Of a stretch of 64,000 nucleotides of DNA, positions 3,107 to 64,000 are shown in pieces. Every line of letters begins with the position of its first letter. Position 1 is the first letter of the stretch. Origin of the DNA: Tachypleus tridentatus (taxonomy: Eukaryota; Arthropoda; Merostomata; Xiphosura; Limulidae). Location of the stretch: positions 46,443,094-46,507,093 of the forward strand of contig NC_134830.1 in NCBI RefSeq assembly GCF_004210375.1, given 5' to 3'. Below the pieces are notes generated by a model. That model was given only the letters and a program-made list of their open reading frames with translations. It was not told the origin of the DNA and ran no database searches. Position numbers and translations under genes: made by a program.

Positions 3107-3767
3107 AATAAATAATTCAAGTTGTTTTTTATTGCTTATATTCAGTTAAGCTATTAATTATCTGTGAAATTGTACAAGTAAATTTGCTTATATGCTAGTA
3201 CTATTAGTATTAGTAAGGAATTTTATTAAAATGTTACTTGTGAACCTAAGCCGACAACAGTACATGTATCAAAGTGAATACGTTTCACAAACAATGAATT
3301 TATTAGATGAGATTTGAATTTTGAAACTTAATATATTGCATATATTAACCTCTCATCATTAAATGTTGTAACTATAAATTTTGTATTGTTTAAACTGTAA
3401 TATAATTTACTAAATATGATACACGTATAATCAAAACATTGAGGTATTAAACATTATACATCTTTTTTACAAGTGTCAAACATTTTTTGCTTTTTTACTT
3501 ACCGTTAGTTTTAATAACATTGTTACTTTTGTTCACAATCACGTTTCACAGGTGTGTAAATAAAAATTAATTGCATTTAATGAAAACAAACTTTTCATCT
3601 ATTCTAAACGTCGAAAAGGTGAAAAAAGGGTGCAAATAACTCACTCAAAAAATTATTTATATACAATTTCAAGTCTCGCCAACACCCAAGTTATACACTT
3701 ATCAACGATCTCATAAGAAACACACAACACTGATCAACTTAAATTTTTAATTGGTAAATACGCAAAC
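3107..3767 (-). other. SRF intron 1, proximal part
   Basis: AT-rich sequence directly downstream of the SRF exon on the minus strand. The splice donor GTTTGC begins at 3767. Nothing else is recognised here. Confidence 0.6.
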
Positions 3768-4103
3768 CTTTTTCATAATTCCAGTCTTTCTTTTGCTGAA
3801 AGTTGTATATCGTCGCAGTTTGTTATCGATAAATTCCATTTTTATTTTTACACGACCCTTCGTTTTCTTCCCATTTGGTGGAGTTGTTTTCTTTGATTTG
3901 TCCGTGTTTCCGCCTTCATTTTCAGAACGGCCAGGAAGTCCAGCTGCCTCAGCCGTTCGTTTTTCGCCACCAGGGCTACCCGCATCTTCTTCCCTTGAAT
4001 CGTCTTCGCTGTCACCACTAAATCCTTGTGTTAAAGAGTCCACATTTTCTATCATGAGTCCAGTGTGATTGGTTTCGTGTCCAACTGATGAAACTCTCTG
4101 CAT
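3768..4103 (-). CDS. SRF: Serum response factor, first coding exon (MADS-box start)
   Basis: This encodes the first 112 residues of an SRF orthologue, the MADS-box transcription factor that binds CArG boxes and controls immediate-early and muscle/cytoskeletal genes (blistered in Drosophila). Residues 1-80 are an acidic and glycine/serine-rich low-complexity region. The MADS box starts near residue 83 (GRVKIKMEFIDNKL) and continues through RRYTTFSKRKTG to IMKK, which matches animal SRF and not MEF2. The start is the ATG at 4103-4101: an in-frame TAA lies 18 bases upstream of it, and the only earlier start-like codon is a GTG. The exon ends AAG|GTTTGC, a phase-0 donor inside the MADS box, after which the frame reads six residues to a stop. 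The rest of the gene must lie to the left of the window. Identity is very secure. Confidence 0.96.
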
Positions 4104-4446
4104 TGCTACCACGTCACTTTACTCCATTCACTCTTTCCCTTTCTGCTTCTACTACACAAATAACATTCAACCCTTACACTAAATTACACAATACGAGAGC
4201 ACGAGGAAAAAAAGAAAAAAGCGCATGCTCTAACAGCTTCGTGGAATTATGTGTTCATGCATAACAAAATAGTTCCACGTAACTATTAGAATTTCTATTA
4301 TTGTTTCAAAATAACATTTTAATTTTATTAATACGAGTCAATAATTAATTACGAAGATAAAATATTATCTATAATATAAATAACGCATTATAAATAAATC
4401 TATGTTAAAACGAGTAATGATACATATGAAACATGTTAACAGGGGA

Positions 4447-37257: not shown

Positions 37258-38821
37258 TCAGCTATTGTGAGTTAAAATTTTATTACAACTTTGGAACAAT
37301 TCACTAACTTACAGTCTTGAAACAGTACCAGAATTCTGCCAAGTGTTTCACATCTACCTTGCACGTCTACATGGGCACATGGGTAGGTGCCCGAAGTAAA
37401 TGTAATACACGGGCGTGACTGTTTCATTTAAGTTTGAGGACAAAGTAACAAAGAACAACATTTTGAACAGTCGTGTATGTTACGTAACTAACTGATCTTT
37501 CTTCACTTAAATTAAAAAAAACAACTAATTTCATAATTGTACTATGCATACAATTAGAACGTACATAGTTACATTGTTATTACATTTAAATATCAACATG
37601 CGTGCACATAAATAATTAAAAAATAAATATTTTGATAGCAACTAACTTGATTTAGGTACTAGAATGATTCGTTGAAAGATCTCTACCATGTTATATCACT
37701 ATACAACAGAAAACAGTGCTCCACTAACTACATTACCTTCCATACCTCCTCCCGGCAGTGACTAAACACTGATTGCCACAGACATACGTGAGTTGTTCTT
37801 GTCTTACAGGCTGCACCTCCTTTATGCTATTGTAAATTCAACCAATCAGGGTACGAAGTGCGAGTTAGTAAATATGTGCGTCACATGCAAACTGGAAGCG
37901 CAAGTGTCACACGTCGGTAAAACGATATCCAACTACACACCTGTATTAGGGTTCGCTACGTACGAGTCCTATGGTTAATAAAAAAAAGCTCGAATATCTG
38001 GCGTCTGAAGTTAAAAAGGTGGTCATTACAATGAGCGATGACTTCTGCCACACTTGGTAAAACGTCAACCGTTCTATAAATAGATGTCCTACCAGCTGTT
38101 GACTTACATGATTGTCAATACTTGCAGCGAATTTTGTTGTGCACAGAGAAACATATATACGATATTTCGCGTACAGTACCAATCCAACAGTAACTTCAAG
38201 GAAAATAATTAGTTAAATGATCAAAACTGGTCTTCTTACGAGCTAACCTAGTGTACGCAGAAAACAGGTTTTGTACATATCCACTCAAATGGTGTAGTCC
38301 ACTGTTAAACATTTCTATGATTGAAAATATAATTAAAAGTAAGATAACATTTAAAGGTTCAAGAGTACAACTGTTTACACTAAGTTTAAAAAGCTTGGTA
38401 GAAAAAATTAAAACATATTGAGTAATATAAGATTCAAGTTATATTTTTAATTAAAGTAACGGGTATTAAATATTGAAAACCTTACTCTTTATTCCCTTCA
38501 TTCATTTGAAAATTGCGAAGCTTGAAAATATTAATTTAGTTTAAACTTCAAAGAATCGTGCCAGTTTCGTTTGTGAAAAAACAACAAACAGCAGAAGACT
38601 AAAGATCGAATAAATTCACTGGCTATAGCACAGACAAACAGAAACAGAAGTTCTATCCCAGTTCAATATCACTTCTTGCTTCTAACGAAAACAAAGAGTA
38701 TGTCATTGGAAACACAAGTTATTTTTACCATCTCAGTAACTGGTGCATAACGTAACAAACCATATTACTGATAGGATTAACATGATATAAATACTGAAAT
38801 AGCAAAACGTTTTGTATAAAA
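37258..38821. other. AT-rich, nothing recognised
   Basis: The frames at 37793-37978 and 37946-38182 have no domain or splice support. Confidence 0.35.
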
Positions 38822-40510
38822 CACGAGAGACTATTAACAACATTGCATGTCTGTTAAGACCACTGAGGTACCAGAAAGATGTATGTGAAACACGAGAGAG
38901 TGTTAACAACACTGCATTCTGTTAAGATCACTGAAGTATCAGAAAGTTGTATATGAAACACGAGAGAGTGTTAACAACACTGCATGTCTGTTAAGACCAC
39001 TGAGGTATCAGAAAGTTGTATATGAAACACGAGAGAGTGTTAACAACACTGCATGTCTGTTAAGACCACTGAAGTATCAGAAAGTTGTATATGAAACACG
39101 AGAGAGTGTTAACAACAGTACATATCTGTTAAGACCACTAAGGTATCAGAAAGTTGTATGTGAAACACAAGAGAGTGTTAACAACACTGCATGTCTGTTA
39201 AGGCCACTGAGGTATCAGAAAGTTGTATATGAAACACGAGAGAGTGTTAACAACACTGCATGTCTGTTAAGACCACTGAAGTATCAGAAAGTTGTATATG
39301 AAACACGAGAGAGTGTTAACAACATTGCATATCTGTTAAGACCACTGAAGTATCAGAAAGTTGTATATGAAACACGAGAGAATGTTAACAACAGTACATG
39401 TCTTAAACCACTGAAGTATCAGAAAATTGTATATGAAACACGAGAGAATGTTAACAACAGAACATGTCTCTTAAACCACTGAAGTATCAGAAAGTTGTAT
39501 ATGGAACGCGGGAGAGTGTTAACAACATTGCATGTCTGTTAAGACCACTGAAGTATCAGAAAGTTGTATATCAAACAGGAGAGAGTATTAACAACAGTAC
39601 ATGTCTGTTAAGACCGCTAAGGTATCAGAAAGTTGTATAGGAAACACGAGAGAGTATTAACAACAGTACATATTTGTTACGACATCTGAAGTATCAGAAA
39701 GTTGTATATGAAACACGAGAGAGTATTAACAACAGTACATGTCTGGTAAGACCACTGAAGTATCAGAAAGTTGTATATGGAACGCGGGAGAGTGTTAACA
39801 ACATTGCATGTCTGTTAAGACCACTGAAGTATCAGAAAGTTGTATATCAAACAGGAGAGAGTATTAACAACAGTACATGTCTGTTAAGACCGCTAAGGTA
39901 TCAGAAAGTTGTATAGGAAACACGAGAGAGTATTAACAACAGTACATATTTGTTACGACATCTGAAGTATCAGAAAGTTGTATATGAGACACGAGAGAGT
40001 ATTAACAACAGTACATATCTGTTAAGACCACTGAAGTATCAGAAAGTTATATATGAAACATGAGAGAGTTTCAACAGTTCATGTGTGTTAAAACCACTGA
40101 AGTATCAGAAAGCTGTATACGAAACACGAGAGAGTATTAACAACAGTACATATCTGTTAAGACCACTGAAGTATCAGAAAGTTATATATGAAACATGAGA
40201 GAGTTTCAACAGTACATGTGTGTTAAAACCACTGAAGTATCAGAAAGTTGTATATGAAACACAAGAGAGTATTAACAACAGTATATATTTGTTACGACAT
40301 CTGAAGTATCAGAAAGTTGTATATGAAACACGAGAGAGTATTAACAACAGTACATATCTGTTAAGACCACTGAAGTATCAAAAACTTCTGTATAAAAAAA
40401 GGGTATTAGCAACAATACATGTCTATTGAAACCACTGAAGTGTCAGAAAGTTGTGAACAAAACACAAGAGTGTTAGCAACAGTAGTTGTCTGTTAAGACC
40501 ACTGAAGCAG
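38822..40510. repeat. Tandem array, 69-bp unit, about 24 copies, with higher-order structure
   Basis: Unit contains CACTGAAGTATCAGAAAGTT and CGAGAGAGTGTTAACAACA. Seven consecutive spacings between 38936 and 39350 are 69 bp apart. A block starting AACGCGGGAGAG at 39505 recurs at 39781, 276 bp (4 units) later, with the same four variant units. Because 69 is a multiple of three, stretches stay open and read a 23-residue repeat such as LKYQKVVYETRESINNS (for example 39674-39916 and 40220-40429), but stops occur in other units. Confidence 0.97.
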
Positions 40511-48980: not shown

Positions 48981-50745
48981 ATATTAGCCTAATAAACTGA
49001 TGTAGTCTAGTCTAATGCTCATTAATTACCACTGAAACGAAACAGTAATATTTTGTTTATAAATGACTTTATTAATTACCATTATCCTAGTAAACTGAAG
49101 AAGTCTAGTCTAAAGCTCATTAGTTATCACTGTAACGAAACAGTAATATTTTGTTTATAAGTGACTTTGTTAGGTTTCCTTTATCCTAATAAACTGAAGT
49201 AGTCTATTCTAATGTTCATTAGTTACCACTGTAACAAAGCAATATATTTTGTTTATAAGTGACTTTGGTAATAACCATTATCCTAACAAAATGAAGTACT
49301 CTAACGTTAATTAGTTACCACTGTAAAGAAGCAATAATATATTCTTTATAACTGATGTTGCTAATTATTGTTATTCTAAAAAAATGAAGCAGTGTAGCCT
49401 AAAGCACATTAGTTATCACAGTAACAAAACAGTAATATTTTGTTTATAAGTGGCTTTGTTAGGTTACCATTATTATAATAAACTGAAGTAGTCTAGTCTA
49501 ATGTTCATTAATTACAACTCTAACGAAAGAGCAATATTTTATTTATAAGTGACTTTGTTAATTACCATTATCCTAATAAACTGAAATAGTCTAATGTTCA
49601 TTAGTTACTACTGTAACGAAGAAATAATAATTTAATTATAAGTGATTTTCTTAAGTTACCGTTATCCTAATAAACTGAAATAGCGTAGTCTAATGTTCAT
49701 TACTTACCACTGTAACTAACAGTAATATTTTGTTTATAAGTGACTTTGTTAGGTTACCATTATCCTAATAAACTGAAGTACTCTAGTCTAATGTTCATTA
49801 GTTACCACTGTAACGAAGCAATAATATTTTGTTTATAAGTGACTTTGTTAATTGCCATTATCCTAATAAACTGAAGTACTCTAGTCTAATGTTCATTAGT
49901 TACCACTGTAACGAAGCAATAATATTTTGTTTATAAGTGACTTTGTTAATTGCCATTATCCTAATAAACTGAAGTACTCTAGTCTAATGTTCATTAGTTA
50001 CCACTGTAACGAAGCCATAATATTTTGTTTATAAGTGACTTTGTTAATTGCCATTATCCTAATAAACTGAAGTACTCTAGTCTAATGTTCATTAGTTACC
50101 ACTGTAACGAAGCAATCGTTTTTTGATTATAGCTAACTTTGTTTGGATACTATTATCCTAATAAAATGAAATAGTCTAGTGTAATGTTTTTGGTTTCTGT
50201 TGTAATTAAACAGTAATATTTTGTTTATAATGACTTTGTTAGGTTCCCATTATCCTAATAAACTCAAGTAGTCTAATCTTACTTTTATTAGTTTCCACTG
50301 TAACGAAACAGTAATATTTTGTTTATAAGTGATGTTGTTAATTACCATTATCCTAATAAAATGAAATAGTCTAACGTTCATTAGTTACCACTGTAACGAA
50401 GCAATCATGTTTTGTTTATAAAAGACTTTGTTAATTACCATTATTTTAATAAACTGAAATAGTCTAATCTTCATCAGTTGCTACTGTAACGAAGCAATAA
50501 TATTTTATTTATAAGTGACTTTCTTAAGTTACCATTATCCTAATAAATTGAAATAATGTAGTCTAATGTTTATTAGTTACCACTGTAACTAAACAGTAAT
50601 ATATTGTTTATATGTGACTTTGTTAGGTTATCATTAACCTAATAAACCGAAACGGTCTAGTCTAATGTTGATTCGTTACCACTATAGCGAAGTAATAATA
50701 TTTTTTTATAAGTGACTTTGTTTGGTTACCGTGATTAATAATAAA
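48981..50745. repeat. Tandem array, 98-bp unit, about 18 copies
   Basis: Unit contains CCTAATAAACTGAAGTA, GTCTAATGTTCATTAGTTAC and TTTGTTTATAAGTGACTTTG. Four consecutive units from 49763 are exactly 98 bp apart and nearly identical. Outer units are more diverged with small indels, a pattern of central homogenisation. Confidence 0.96.
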
Positions 50746-51240: not shown

Positions 51241-52500
51241 TCTCTGTAAGTGGACACACCAAGCCACGACATTATGTCAATATCTGTAACTCTTTGTTAT
51301 CTGTAAGTGGACACACCAAGCCACGACATTATGTCAATATCTGTAACTCTTTGTTATATTAGTAACACACTAAGACACTACATGATGTCAGTAGCTATAC
51401 CTTCTTGTTATATTAGTCAACTAATATAACAAAAAATGTTTTGAGTTATATCATATTAGTAGCTGTACCTCCTTGTTATATTAGTTAACACGCTAAGCCA
51501 CGATATGATGTCAGTAGGTGCATCTCTTTGTTGTATGAGTCCATACACTGAGACACGAAATGATGCCGGTAGTTGTACTTCCTTGGTATATTAGTCAACT
51601 AATGTAACAACAAAAAATGTTTTGAGTTATATTGTGTTAGTAGCTGTACCTCCTTGTTATATTAGTAAACACACTAAGCCACGATATGATGTCAGTAGCT
51701 GTAACGTCAACACATTAATACACGATATAATATCAGTAGTTGTATCTCCTTGTTATGTACGTCAATACATTAACACACGATATAATATCAGTAGTTGTAT
51801 CTCCTTCTTATATTAGTCAACACATTAAGACACGATATAATATCAGTAGTTGTACCTCCTTGTTATGTACGTCAATACATTAACACACGATATAATATCA
51901 GTAGTTGTATCTCCTTGTTATGTACGTCAATACATTAACACACGATATAATATCAGTAGTTGTACCTCCTTCTTATATTAGTCAACACATTAAGACACGA
52001 TATAATATCAATAGTTGTATCTCCTTGTTATGTACGTCAATACATTAAGACACGATATAATATCAGTAGTTGTACCTCCTTGTTATGTACGTCAATACAT
52101 TAACACACGATATAATATCAGTAGTTGTATCTCCTTGTTATGTACGTCAATACATTAAGACACGATATAATATCAGTAGTTGTACCTCCTTCTTATATTA
52201 GTCAACACATTAAGACACGATATAATATCAATAGTTGTATCTCCTTGTTATGTACGTCAATACATTAACACACGATATAATATCAGTAGTTGTATCTCCT
52301 TGTTATGTTCGTCAATACATTAACACACGATATAATATCAGTAGTTGTACCTCCTTCTTATATTAGTCAACACATTAAGACACGATATAATATCAGTAGT
52401 TGTATCTCCTTGTTATGTAGTCAATACATTAACACACGATATGATGTCAGTAGCTATACCTCCTTGTTATATTAGTCAACACACTAATCTACGATTTGAT
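51241..52500. repeat. Tandem array, 55-bp unit, about 22 copies, with higher-order variants
   Basis: Unit contains CACGATATAATATCAGTAGT, TGTA(C/T)CTCCTT and GTCAA(T/C)ACATTAA. Two unit types alternate in blocks: one with TGTTATGTACGTCAATAC and one with TCTTATATTAGTCAACAC. Two short inverted stretches (GTTATATTAGT/ACTAATATAAC) occur in the diverged left part near 51407-51430. Short open frames here come from the repeat and are not genes. Confidence 0.96.
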
Positions 52501-53065
52501 GTTAGAATTATGAATTACAATGACTTACGAGAAGTGCAGGTTTCTTTAAAAGGTGATTTGATGTATGTTTAGAAGTTGTACCAAAGCTAAAGTAAAAAGT
52601 GAATAAATAAATAGAATAAACGTAATCTTAAATAACAGATAATTGAAGATGAAGGATGTCACCAACACATCCAGCCGAAGACATCAATAATGACATAACT
52701 TTTTTGATAGGTATTTTACCCTTTAAGCCTTCTCACTTTCATTTTAACCTCATCAACTTGTTACTAAACTGTCTATTCGTTTAATGAAGTGTCTTGTACA
52801 TTACTATTTATTTTGAGTGCGCACTCTAGGCTACTTGTAATACAGTTCCTTCAAATCACATGATTCTTATCGTCTGTTACTAATGTCATTTTTACCTGTT
52901 ATTTCGTAAAGACGGGGTTTTTACTAAAATTCTGTCGCTTGTAAGAAAATTTCTATACATTTCAAACATTGCATGTGGTAACCCTAAACATAATAATAAT
53001 AATAATAATACGAATAAAATTTTAAAAATGTTTTTCGTGCATTCTTCAAATGAATTTTCTTTTGT
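52501..53065. other. AT-rich spacer, (AAT)n near 52990
   Basis: Lies between the 55-bp and 59-bp arrays. Only a short AAT microsatellite is recognised. Confidence 0.4.
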
Positions 53066-53655
53066 TAAGTTACAGCTTCATCTAGGAGCGTGATGTTTTA
53101 CTGTTTGTATCAGAAACATTGCCTTAAGTTACAGCTTCATCTAGGAGCGTGATGTTTTACTGTTTGTATCAGAAACATTGCCTTAAGTTACAGCTTCATC
53201 TAGGAGCGTGATGTTTTACTGTTTGTATCAGAAACATTGCCTTAAGTGACAGCTTCATCTAGGAGCGTGATGTTTTACTGTTTGTATCAGAAACATTGCC
53301 TTAAGTTACAGCTTCATCTAGGAGTGTGATGTTTTACTGTTTGTATCAGAAACATTGCCTTAAGTTACAGCTTCATCTAGGAGCGTGATGTTTTACTGTT
53401 TGTATCAGAAACATTGCCTTAAGTTACAGCTTCATCTAGGAGCGTGATGTTTTACTGTTTGTATCAGAAACATTGCCTTAAGTTACAGCTTCATCTAGGA
53501 GCGTGATGTTTTACTGTTTGTATCAGAAACATTGCCTTAAGTTACAGCTTCATCTAGAAGCGTGATGTTTTACTGTTTGTATCAGAAACATTGCCTTAAG
53601 TTACAGCTTCATCGAGGAGCGTGATGTTTTACTGTTTGTATCAGAAACATTGCGA
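53066..53655. repeat. Tandem array, 59-bp unit, 10 near-identical copies
   Basis: TAAGTTACAGCTTCATCTAG followed by GAGCGTGATGTTTTACTG and TTTGTATCAGAAACATTGCC repeats with only about four single-base differences in 590 bp. It is the most homogeneous array in the window, so the expansion or conversion is probably recent. Confidence 0.98.
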
Positions 53656-58268: not shown

Positions 58269-59135
58269 ATCTAATTTCCCTATTCATTCTAAATTATATA
58301 TACTTCTCTCTTCCCCCTTCATTTGGATATAATCAACACTTCAGAAGAGCAATTACACAAAAGTATAGTCAAGAAAGTTTAAGCGGTATCGAATGGTTAC
58401 TGTTGCACACAACTCTAGTCCGAGACAAAGAAAAACGGAAGTTTGTGTCTATTGGCACCCAGTTTACAAGAAACGTCAGCTAAATGTTATACACATGCAT
58501 GTAGAATTCGAAAATATATATATATATATATATGAATAAAGATACATTATTTTCTAAATTGTAGGATGGTCAAATGTGTGAGTTTGTCAATTATTACAAT
58601 ACAAACTCTTGATTTTTCTTTTTACAAAACCTTCTGTATTTACGTTAGAATTTATCAGACGATGAAGCAGGATTATCCAAGAAAGATAATAAATATTAGT
58701 TTTGGTCGTTGTTTTTTTTATATAGATTTTGTTGTTTAGCATTAAGTTAAGGTTCCATCCTTATATGTGTTTAGCATCTGGTTCATAGTCTCATATTTGG
58801 ATTTATTTATTGTTCAGCGTTAGATGAGGCTTTCCTTTCTCCACTTATGAAAAATAAACTACACTCATTTTGCCAGTGGAGAGTATAGGTAGCGGGATGA
58901 CATCTGTCCTTAATTTCGACAACCTGTCGGTAGACACCTAGTGTTATTTTTATATATTATTAATTGATTAATATTTTATCGTATTTGGTTGTATATTGTT
59001 AGGTAGATTAATAGTTGAATAATTCACTTCAACGCCAGTTTATTTGCCATTTGATTTTATTGTTTGAACATGAAACTGTAGAATAAAGTACCTGGACTTT
59101 ATCTACTGAAAGGATCGAACCTCAAATTTTAGAAT
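58269..59135. other. AT-rich, nothing recognised
   Basis: Contains a (TA)n run near 58516. No gene is seen. Confidence 0.35.
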
Positions 59136-59137
59136 TA

Positions 59138-60113
59138 CACCCTTGTGCAAATTAATTGAAACAAGACGGAAAATTGCGATTTTTTTCAATTTTTTGCGTT
59201 TTATTTCTGAGAATCCAAAAATTACTCACAAATTAATACATGATATGACAGCCTTTATTTTTCAGAAGATCATTAATCCGCTTTGGCATCGAGTCCACGA
59301 GTTGACTGCAATTTTGTGGATCGCGGTACCACACCTCAATTAGCTCATCTTTCGTAGTACAGTCTTTTTCCCGAAGTATTTCTTTACAAATCGCCCAAAG
59401 ATTTTCAATAGGATTTAAGTCCGAAGAGTTTCCAGGCCAGTCCAGCACCTTTATTCGCGTTGTAGCCATAAAATTCTTCACAAGTTTCGATGTGTGGCAC
59501 GAAGCCAGATCTTGCTGAAAAATGCCAGATCCATCTGGAAATCTCTCTTTCAATTCTGGAACGACTCTTCTCTGCAAAACTTTGATGTACTGTGGTCCTC
59601 GCATCATACCTTCTACGATATATAAGCCTCCAACGCCATAGTAGCTGAAAAAGCCCCAAAACATCTTCTTCAAGGGGATGTTTTACGAACTGATTGATGT
59701 GAGATTCTCGAAGTTTCTCACCTGGAGATCTGCGAACATTCAGACTTCTTTGACCCTGTACGAAGAAATGAGTCTCGTCACTGAATAACACCTTTCTCCA
59801 TTGTTCTTGCATCCAGTTCTTGCATTTCAGACCTCATTGATACCGTTTTTTCTTCATTGAGTTGGCAAGAAGTTGTTTTTTTGACTGGTCTCCTTGACCT
59901 TCTAACGCAATTTCGAATGACGTAATATTCCTCAAAAATTCGTCATATGTCCCAAAAATAGATAGGCCGTACTGCAAAACACAGCTAATGACGCCGTCTG
60001 TGTGAAAACAATGACTATTAAAGGAAATCAGCAGGTCCAGCGAGCCTACACCGGCCGCCATGCTGAAAATATTGTAAAATGACCATTTGTTTCAATTAAT
60101 TTGCACAAGGGTG
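59138..60113 (-). mobile_element. Tc1/mariner element, complete ends, 976 bp, TA duplication
   Basis: Terminal inverted repeats CACCCTTGTGCAAATTAATT (59138 on) and its exact complement ending at 60113 extend for about 27 bp. TA occurs on both sides (59136-59137, 60114-60115), the standard Tc1 target. It is short for a 1.3-kb Tc1 element, so part of the transposase N-terminus is deleted. Confidence 0.97.
59233..60061 (-). pseudogene. Tc1-like transposase, broken
   Basis: DDE transposase that would cut and paste the surrounding element. Seen in order: a short N-terminal remnant from the ATG at 60061, MKKKRY then an in-frame TGA at 59834-59836 where the family has Trp, the first catalytic Asp in VLFSDETHFF, a +/-1 frameshift near 59672 (FVKHPL to KKMFWGFFSY), the second Asp in FQQDLASCH, and the DLNPIENLW motif with the third acidic residue. 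Most of the helix-turn-helix DNA-binding region is missing. The catalytic triad itself is intact, but the stop and frameshift make it non-functional. Confidence 0.95.
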
Positions 60114-60116
60114 TAA

Positions 60117-62439: not shown

Positions 62440-63055
62440 GTGCCTCCCATTTGCGTTAATAACTGCAAACACTCTTTCAGACATTATTGCAACATAATTA
62501 ATCAAAGTGTCTTTGGGATTTTACTCCAAATGTTTCTAATACACTTCCACAAAGTTTCTTTGGGAGTAAATTTGATTTGTCAAATTTCTGATCAATCGAA
62601 TCCCAGATCTGGGCAATTGGGTTCAAATCGGAACTCTGTGGGAACCATTGCATCATTTGAATAACTCCAGTAGCCTCTTTCTTAGTTAAATAATTTCTTG
62701 ATACATTGAATGAGTGCTTGGGGTCATTATATTTTTGGTAGTATAATCCTTTACCAATAATACATAAACCCTTGGGTATACCATGATGGATCAGTATCTG
62801 ATGGTACTTGCGCTGGTCTATTATCCTATCTATTTTGCAAATATCTTCTGTCTCCTCAGTAGAAAATTATTTCCAAACTATCACACTGCTTCTTCCATGC
62901 TTCATGTTAAGTGCGTGAAGTAAGCATCTTTCACCTTTCTTTCGCAGGCTGTGCAATCTACGCTTTGAACCAAATATTTCAAACTTGAACTTATCCATCC
63001 ATAACACACTTTCCAATCATCAATAGTCCAGTTTCGTACTTTTTAAAGCAACTTT
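62440..63055 (-). pseudogene. Second Tc1-like transposase remnant, catalytically dead
   Basis: C-terminal half of a transposase from a different Tc1 lineage. It reads WMDKFKFEIFG, then MKHGRSSVIVWK and a TAA where the family has Gly-Cys, then RKYHQILIHHGIP. The QQDNDPKH-type motif is mutated to QKYNDPKH, losing the second Asp. In SSDLNPIAQIWD the third acidic residue is Ala. A frameshift near the C-terminus ends the frame early. The N-terminus and right terminal repeat are missing. The DNA just beyond (63060-63240) shows nothing recognised. Confidence 0.9.
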
Positions 63056-63245
63056 CAGTATCTTGAAAATATATGTTGATGGAAGAAAAGGGCATTAACT
63101 GCTACACAATCAAATGTTCCAGTCTCGTAATCTTCTTGATACTGTAAATCTGAATATTTTACTGTAATTTGCTACATGGTCGTTTATCTCATGCTTGAGA
63201 TTAGAGGATGTGACCTGGGTAATGAAATTTTCAAATTTACCCAAT

Positions 63246-63362
63246 TTCCAGAACATTCCAGGTAGGTTCGGTGCTGAGTAGCTGATAGAGAATTTTCTCG
63301 ATCTTACAAGAATTTTCAAGAACTTTCTAGAATATTGTAGAACTTACGAGAATTTTCTAGAA
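63246..63362 (+). promoter_or_regulatory. Heat-shock element array
   Basis: TTCCAGAACATTC (63246-63258) is a perfect three-unit heat-shock element. From 63290 to 63362, fifteen alternating GAA/TTC pentamers stand in an unbroken 5-bp register. Eleven are perfect and the others (GAT, TAC, TTG, TAC) differ by one base. Five perfect units run consecutively at 63310-63332. HSF trimers bind three or more such units, so this is an exceptionally strong predicted HSF target. It ends 11 bp before a TATA box. Confidence 0.9.
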
Positions 63363-63372
63363 TTTCAATAGT

Positions 63373-63409
63373 TATATATATAGGGAGCTCACCACTCACT
63401 ACTTCAGTT
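63373..63409 (+). promoter_or_regulatory. Core promoter: TATA box and TCAGTT initiator
   Basis: TATATATATAG (63373-63383) is followed by TCAGTT (63404-63409), the arthropod initiator consensus. If the A at 63406 is +1, the TATA box begins at about -31 to -33, the standard distance. This predicts a 54-base 5' leader to the ATG at 63460. An alternative is that TTTTATCACAG just before the ATG is a splice acceptor. Confidence 0.8.
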
Positions 63410-63459
63410 TAGTTCTAGCTACCTAAGTGAACACATAGACCTATCTGATTTTATCACAG

Positions 63460-63667
63460 ATGGCATCAAGAAGCTGCAAGCATTCTTCAGACGCACTCTG
63501 CTTTGTATGTGGCCAATTTCTCAAGACAAGAGCGAAAACGTACTCTGTAACAACATTTGCTAAAATGTGTGAAGTCTACAAGCCATATTTCGGCATGCCT
63601 GTCGGGGATCAAGATAAACCCTTAGCATTTCATTTTATCTGCGAGCACTGCAAAAAAACTCTAGAAG
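63460..63667 (+). CDS. Repeat-associated protein, N-terminal exon with two CxxC pairs
   Basis: From the ATG at 63460 the frame encodes about 69 residues of a family I recognise as recurring in arthropod and other invertebrate genomes as uncharacterised, often multicopy proteins. I cannot name its origin; a transposon-related origin is likely. Two CxxC pairs (Cys14/Cys17, Cys61/Cys64) could bind zinc. It ends KKTLE at CTAGAAG, where the family continues GWYRGEKR; that sequence appears at 63877 after an acceptor TTTTGCAG. The base pair after the junction is AT instead of GT, so the donor of this 209-bp intron looks mutated. Without splicing, the frame runs ten more residues to a stop at 63699. 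Confidence 0.65.
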
Positions 63668-63876
63668 ATAATACGGATAATTTTTGTTTGCTTGAATAGT
63701 AAGATTTTATATTATACAAATTTTAGACTTTTTAAAATTTAAATATCTCTTTTTTAATTTCCAATAGTATAGAAAAATATCACATATAAAATATTTTGCA
63801 TGAACCTCTTATACATTAGTTGTGGGTGAAATAAATTTATTCTTCATAATAATAATTTTATTTTGCTCTTTTGCAG

Positions 63877-64000
63877 GATGGTACAGAGGGGAAAAGAGAG
63901 CTATGAGGAATACAACAGTGTCAAGACCTTGCTAGAAGTCTTCAAGTATGATGAGTATGGCTGGTAGGTTATCAGAGACTTCAAAATGGTGGCATTTCTG
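63877..64000 (+). pseudogene. Continuation of the same family, internally deleted
   Basis: After TTTTGCAG the frame reads GWYRGEKR, then shifts. In another frame SYEEYNSVKTLLEVFKYDEY follows, then GW, an in-frame TAG, and VIRDFKMVAFL up to the window edge. Both parts belong to the family, but hundreds of residues that normally separate them are missing. The copy therefore carries a deletion, a frameshift and a stop. It continues beyond the window. Confidence 0.75.

Follow-up and report, generated by a model that had tools for sequence, protein, structure and literature searches.

Helitron1_CE of Caenorhabditis encodes a Rep-helicase, which is not a DDE (Asp-Asp-Glu) transposase. This DNA transposon and its relatives carry many heat-shock elements (HSEs) in the transposase promoter; in Helitron1_CE the Rep-helicase gene F33H12.6 is preceded by 14 HSEs and is reported to be heat-induced and bound by HSF-1 (PMC6927752). 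For DIRS-1 of Dictyostelium, a retrotransposon, an active heat-shock promoter located in the inverted terminal repeats has been reported (PMC2685390). The heat-activated element ONSEN of Arabidopsis is a copia retrotransposon of a plant (PMC6927752), and TCN3 and TCN12 of Cryptococcus are long terminal repeat retrotransposons with one or two putative HSEs (PMC12810828). The locus described here lies in a 64,000-nucleotide stretch of the genome of the horseshoe crab Tachypleus tridentatus (contig NC_134830.1, positions 46,443,094 to 46,507,093; hereafter the window), in which an array of HSEs and a core promoter stand upstream of the first exon of a broken gene from an uncharacterized protein family. 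Heat induction was measured for Helitron1_CE; for the window it is predicted from the sequence. The explanation favored here, with confidence a little above even, is that the locus preserves the 5' end of a RAG1/Transib-like DDE element, now dead, that encoded a ZAD-like domain and had its own heat-shock promoter.

Heat-shock elements and core promoter

GAA and TTC pentamers alternate strictly, in a single register, throughout the array (Table 1). A first-pass annotation had reported fifteen pentamers in one register, which is correct for the frame but somewhat overstates the number of perfect units, as all three core bases are matched in 11 units and two of the three in 4. A promoter of the heat-shock factor (HSF) type was taken to comprise at least three alternating nGAAn/nTTCn units with a TATA box and initiator downstream at plausible spacing, and to give heat-inducible, HSF-dependent transcription. 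The locus has 15 units plus a separate perfect trimer, and both core promoter elements follow at a plausible spacing. The trimer, the TATA box and the initiator, with a start near 63406, had been named in the first-pass annotation and were recovered here. Based on the position of TCAGTT, the A at 63406 is the putative first transcribed base, 43 bp downstream of the end of the array. The array would probably be bound by HSF and confer heat inducibility. In the proposed mechanism, HSF trimers would bind cooperatively to the array of 15 units and to the trimer upstream of it, and transcription would begin at about 63406, as set by the TATA box and initiator, with a leader of 54 nt ahead of the ATG. 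HSEs also lie close upstream of the TATA box in the hsp70 genes of Drosophila and Stratiomys, and Stratiomys hsp70 has a TATATA box; Drosophila hsp70 differs in having four spaced HSEs and GAGA sites, whereas the window has a continuous 15-unit array and no chaperone (PMC4336284).

Runs of alternating pentamers were compared using a simple chain score of our own. This score was 9.0 at the array, and no other place in the 64 kb exceeded 3.0. The maximum was likewise 3.0 when the whole window was resampled 40 times with a first-order model and in 3000 resamples of local composition, of which none reached 9.0. The array has a period of 10 bp. Variation was observed at 4 of 45 core positions and 8 of 30 spacer positions (one-sided Fisher p 0.04), and because the cores vary less than the spacers there is a weak indication that the array is not simply a decaying 10-bp tandem repeat.

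Table 1. Features at and around the heat-shock promoter (positions within the window).
Feature	Position	Strand	Evidence
Separate perfect heat-shock trimer TTCnnGAAnnTTC	63246..63258	+	sequence
HSE array of 15 alternating pentamers (perfect cores in 11, a single core mismatch in each of the other 4)	63289..63363	+	sequence
TATA box TATATATATA	63373..63382	+	sequence
Initiator-like TCAGTT, putative start at 63406	63404..63409	+	sequence
Putative 5' leader; last 27 nt resemble an N-terminal extension in P0001 and P0003	63406..63459	+	frame scoring
Exon 1 (69 aa; 78% identity to P0012), with a zf-AD/ZAD-like zinc domain	63460..63666	+	tblastn E 1e-30
Intron, left border uncertain by about 1 base, donor not canonical, acceptor TTTGCAG kept	63667..63876	+	sequence
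First part of exon 2: family residues 70-80, deletion, frame change to 293-324, in-frame stop; runs off window	63877..64000	+	tblastn, translation
Degenerate Tc1/mariner transposase remnant, right edge uncertain	62480..63240	-	blastp of C-terminal part, E 9e-6

The downstream gene and its family

The open reading frame (ORF) starting at 63460 encodes 79 amino acids, the first 69 of which correspond to the first exon of a gene of far greater length. Eight relatives, three of them from T. tridentatus, were found in a first search with this ORF. When the search was set to longer proteins, 11 were found (7 from sturgeon, 2 from Serrasalmus, 1 from a frog, and P0012), of which only P0012, a 562-aa protein of the fish Myxocyprinus, was near family length. 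When 8000 candidates were scored against P0012 itself, 1788 reached E 0.001 or better. To judge by source names, the 120 of these that were listed come from fish, lamprey, frog, mantis shrimp, prawn, moth, wasp and glass sponge, among others, and many are unnamed metagenome proteins. Nearly all family members in the databases searched are named 'uncharacterized' or 'hypothetical', and no match of the ORF to a chaperone was seen in the searches made. Both the description of the gene as part of an uncharacterized multicopy family and the statement that it is not a chaperone are thereby borne out. NCBIfam gave no match for P0012, and no relatives were found in the collections of viral contigs, genome contigs and phages. 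A literature search for Cc8L18.2, a name for this protein family, gave no match. One sturgeon gene model, P0016, has the family exon 1 fused to alkB homolog 3, which annotation error or exon capture could explain.

The copy in the window is the 5' part of a dead, internally deleted gene, probably that of a mobile element. The place of the splice donor was deduced from relatives whose protein sequences all continue into the intron there, and the similarity score of the intron start to P0002 was 0. Exon 1 differs from P0012 at five positions with conservation of 90% or more in a 30-row alignment (13, 15, 39, 55 and 57; the change at 39 was read off the alignment). With the splice donor broken, a large deletion and a stop codon, this copy cannot itself make protein and spread. 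The earlier suggestion of a mobile gene is partly supported. It fits the multicopy family, which looks mobile from its transposase-like predicted fold, its wide spread in animals and the fact that, among named relatives of family length, the closest is a fish protein; the damage to the copy found here had been overlooked.

The product of the family is likely a DDE transposase of RAG1/Transib-like type that begins with a ZAD-like zinc domain. The structure predicted for the relative P0012 has an RNase H-like DDE fold with a helical insertion, and when 80 relatives were compared with the RAG1 residues, D, D and E (the catalytic Glu being a candidate) were found together with CxxC and HxxxxH in the RAG1 order. 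The spacing from the second D to the C and from H to H is also like that of Transib/RAG1, and the family differs in its ZAD-like N terminus. Owing to the deletion and to where the window ends, the window itself shows at most the second Asp of the set. No match at E 0.001 or better was obtained among structures of viral proteins. RAG1/Transib elements are expected to have 5-bp target duplications and terminal inverted repeats that begin with a CAC heptamer. The CACWRTG heptamer is absent from the + strand of 63000-63420, the ends of the element not having been located and its 3' end lying outside the window. For the N-terminal domain, a structure search with the predicted fold of exon 1 gave a weak ZAD-like match; the third row from Foldseek was the THAP domain of P-element transposase (E 0.85). 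The Pfam zf-AD model scored 15.7 bits on the window exon, against a cut-off of 28, and stayed below this cut-off in P0012 (18 bits) and P0017 (23.2 bits). Among 21 sampled members, no other Pfam model had several matches at E 0.01; zf-AD matched 5 of the 21, with a best E of 0.0015.

Exon 1 of the window has 78% identity with the fish sequence and 71-72% with each of the three copies from Tachypleus; the values for the frog, for P0024 (an unnamed metagenome protein) and for the mantis shrimp are 71%, 68% and 67%. In a tree of 30 rows and 69 amino acids, it groups with the three Tachypleus copies (support 0.77), and the neighbors of this group are P0024 and fish, support being modest (0.72-0.81). 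The closeness of the horseshoe crab and fish exons, although these are short, suggests that the family may have been transferred across phyla. A literature search combining horizontal transfer, horseshoe crab, transposon and sturgeon gave no match.

Origin of the promoter

Two comparisons bear on whether the promoter came with the gene. The last 27 nt of the leader resemble the N-terminal extension of P0001 and P0003, the exon 1 of which is that of fish P0012; as good or better a score was reached by 183 of the 127946 27-nt frames of the window (p 0.0014), and by 946 of 127946 when P0004 was used. Exon 1 has changed at 15 of 69 residues, equivalent to neutral change of about 10%; at that rate a once perfect 45-base array core would be hit 4-5 times, and 4 hits are observed; this clock ignores selection before the death of the copy and takes as reference a fish copy that is not a direct ancestor. 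Decay of the array and the exon thus fits one clock, which is consistent with the array being present when the copy died. This fit is no proof that the array came with the copy, and the array would be the family's own only by extension. Several observations weigh against a RAG1/Transib-like element with its own promoter. No sequence match of the family to the RAG1/Transib core was found, and a profile of the 80 relatives run against PDB sequences to E 10 found two chains, neither of them RAG1 nor Transib. The predicted structure carries a helical-model warning, the Asp spacing differs from that of RAG1/Transib (a shorter D-to-D distance in the family), and the leader likeness was spotted by eye before scoring, which covered two extensions and so was post hoc. 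These last three points lowered our confidence in this explanation slightly.

One-off capture, in which a host hsp promoter was acquired by a remnant that inserted next to it or recombined with it and the family as a whole lacks such a promoter, fares best among the alternatives and is judged rather unlikely. Only a single locus was seen, and a TATA box, initiator and proximal HSE are what an arthropod hsp gene would supply; moreover, AAGTGAACAC (63425-63434) in the leader may resemble the Drosophila hsp70 leader. The Tc1/mariner remnant also ends about where the array begins. Its C-terminal part was identified by blastp against the other Tc1-like copy in the window, DDE_3 gave E 0.052 (below cut-off), and its N-terminal half, judged by eye against Tc1 proteins, fades out near 63240, about where the heat-shock region begins. 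Capture is opposed, though not strongly, by the leader likeness, which leaves about 50 bp to the TATA box for a junction, and by the shared decay of array and exon. N-terminal matches between the two Tc1 copies (E 1.6 and E 4.6) were judged to be chance. The other Tc1/mariner-like element (59135-60116) has 51-nt inverted ends that are 80% complementary and a transposase split over frames, one piece of which matches DDE_3 at E 3e-12.

In many DNA transposons, subterminal repeats are bound by the zinc domain of the transposase. That the array consists of such repeats, bound by the element's own protein and not by HSF, is improbable: its 10-bp period, the ZAD-like domain in exon 1, the THAP match and a possible position next to the element's left end would fit, but the strict 5-bp GAA/TTC alternation, the lower variation of cores than of spacers and the site directly upstream of the TATA box and initiator do not. 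Slightly less probable again is a domesticated, stress-induced host gene family that is not a mobile element. The long protein is strongly conserved across animals, an intron is present and no terminal inverted repeats were seen; against these stand the very many relatives, the shortened gene models in fish and horseshoe crab, the greater closeness of the window exon to fish than to a crustacean, and the broken copy itself. Chance simple sequence is very improbable even in an A+T-rich window (G+C 0.335) with numerous minisatellites, as none of the 3000 local or 40 whole-window resamples came near the array score. The long minisatellites lie at 1451-2052, 38793-40507, 48983-50722, 51704-52470 and 53065-53653, and one minisatellite of the window comprises 10 copies of 59 bp with 98% matches. 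Elsewhere, 3747-4118 (- strand) holds a serum response factor-like exon with the start of a MADS domain (SRF-TF E 7e-7), in frame with an acidic N-terminal part.

Implications for the family

Heat-shock promoters on transposons are known; as far as the literature searched tells, their use by an animal DDE lineage near RAG1/Transib would be new. A literature search on zf-AD with DDE transposase and superfamily gave no match. If the dead element did carry its own promoter, stress in intact copies would raise transposase levels and hence mobility. More tentatively, and with confidence short of even, the locus may represent an unnamed animal-wide lineage of RAG1/Transib-like ZAD transposons with a built-in, near-ideal heat-shock promoter and stress-driven movement within genomes, perhaps between phyla; the structural relatives of the antibody recombinase would then include a stress-triggered element. 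Promoter aside, a widespread animal gene family gains a likely enzyme class and a predicted fold close to RAG1/Transib. Should the array be a family trait, animals would have a DDE-type DNA transposon whose transposase gene carries a full heat-shock promoter, and the old idea that stress mobilizes transposons would become directly testable.
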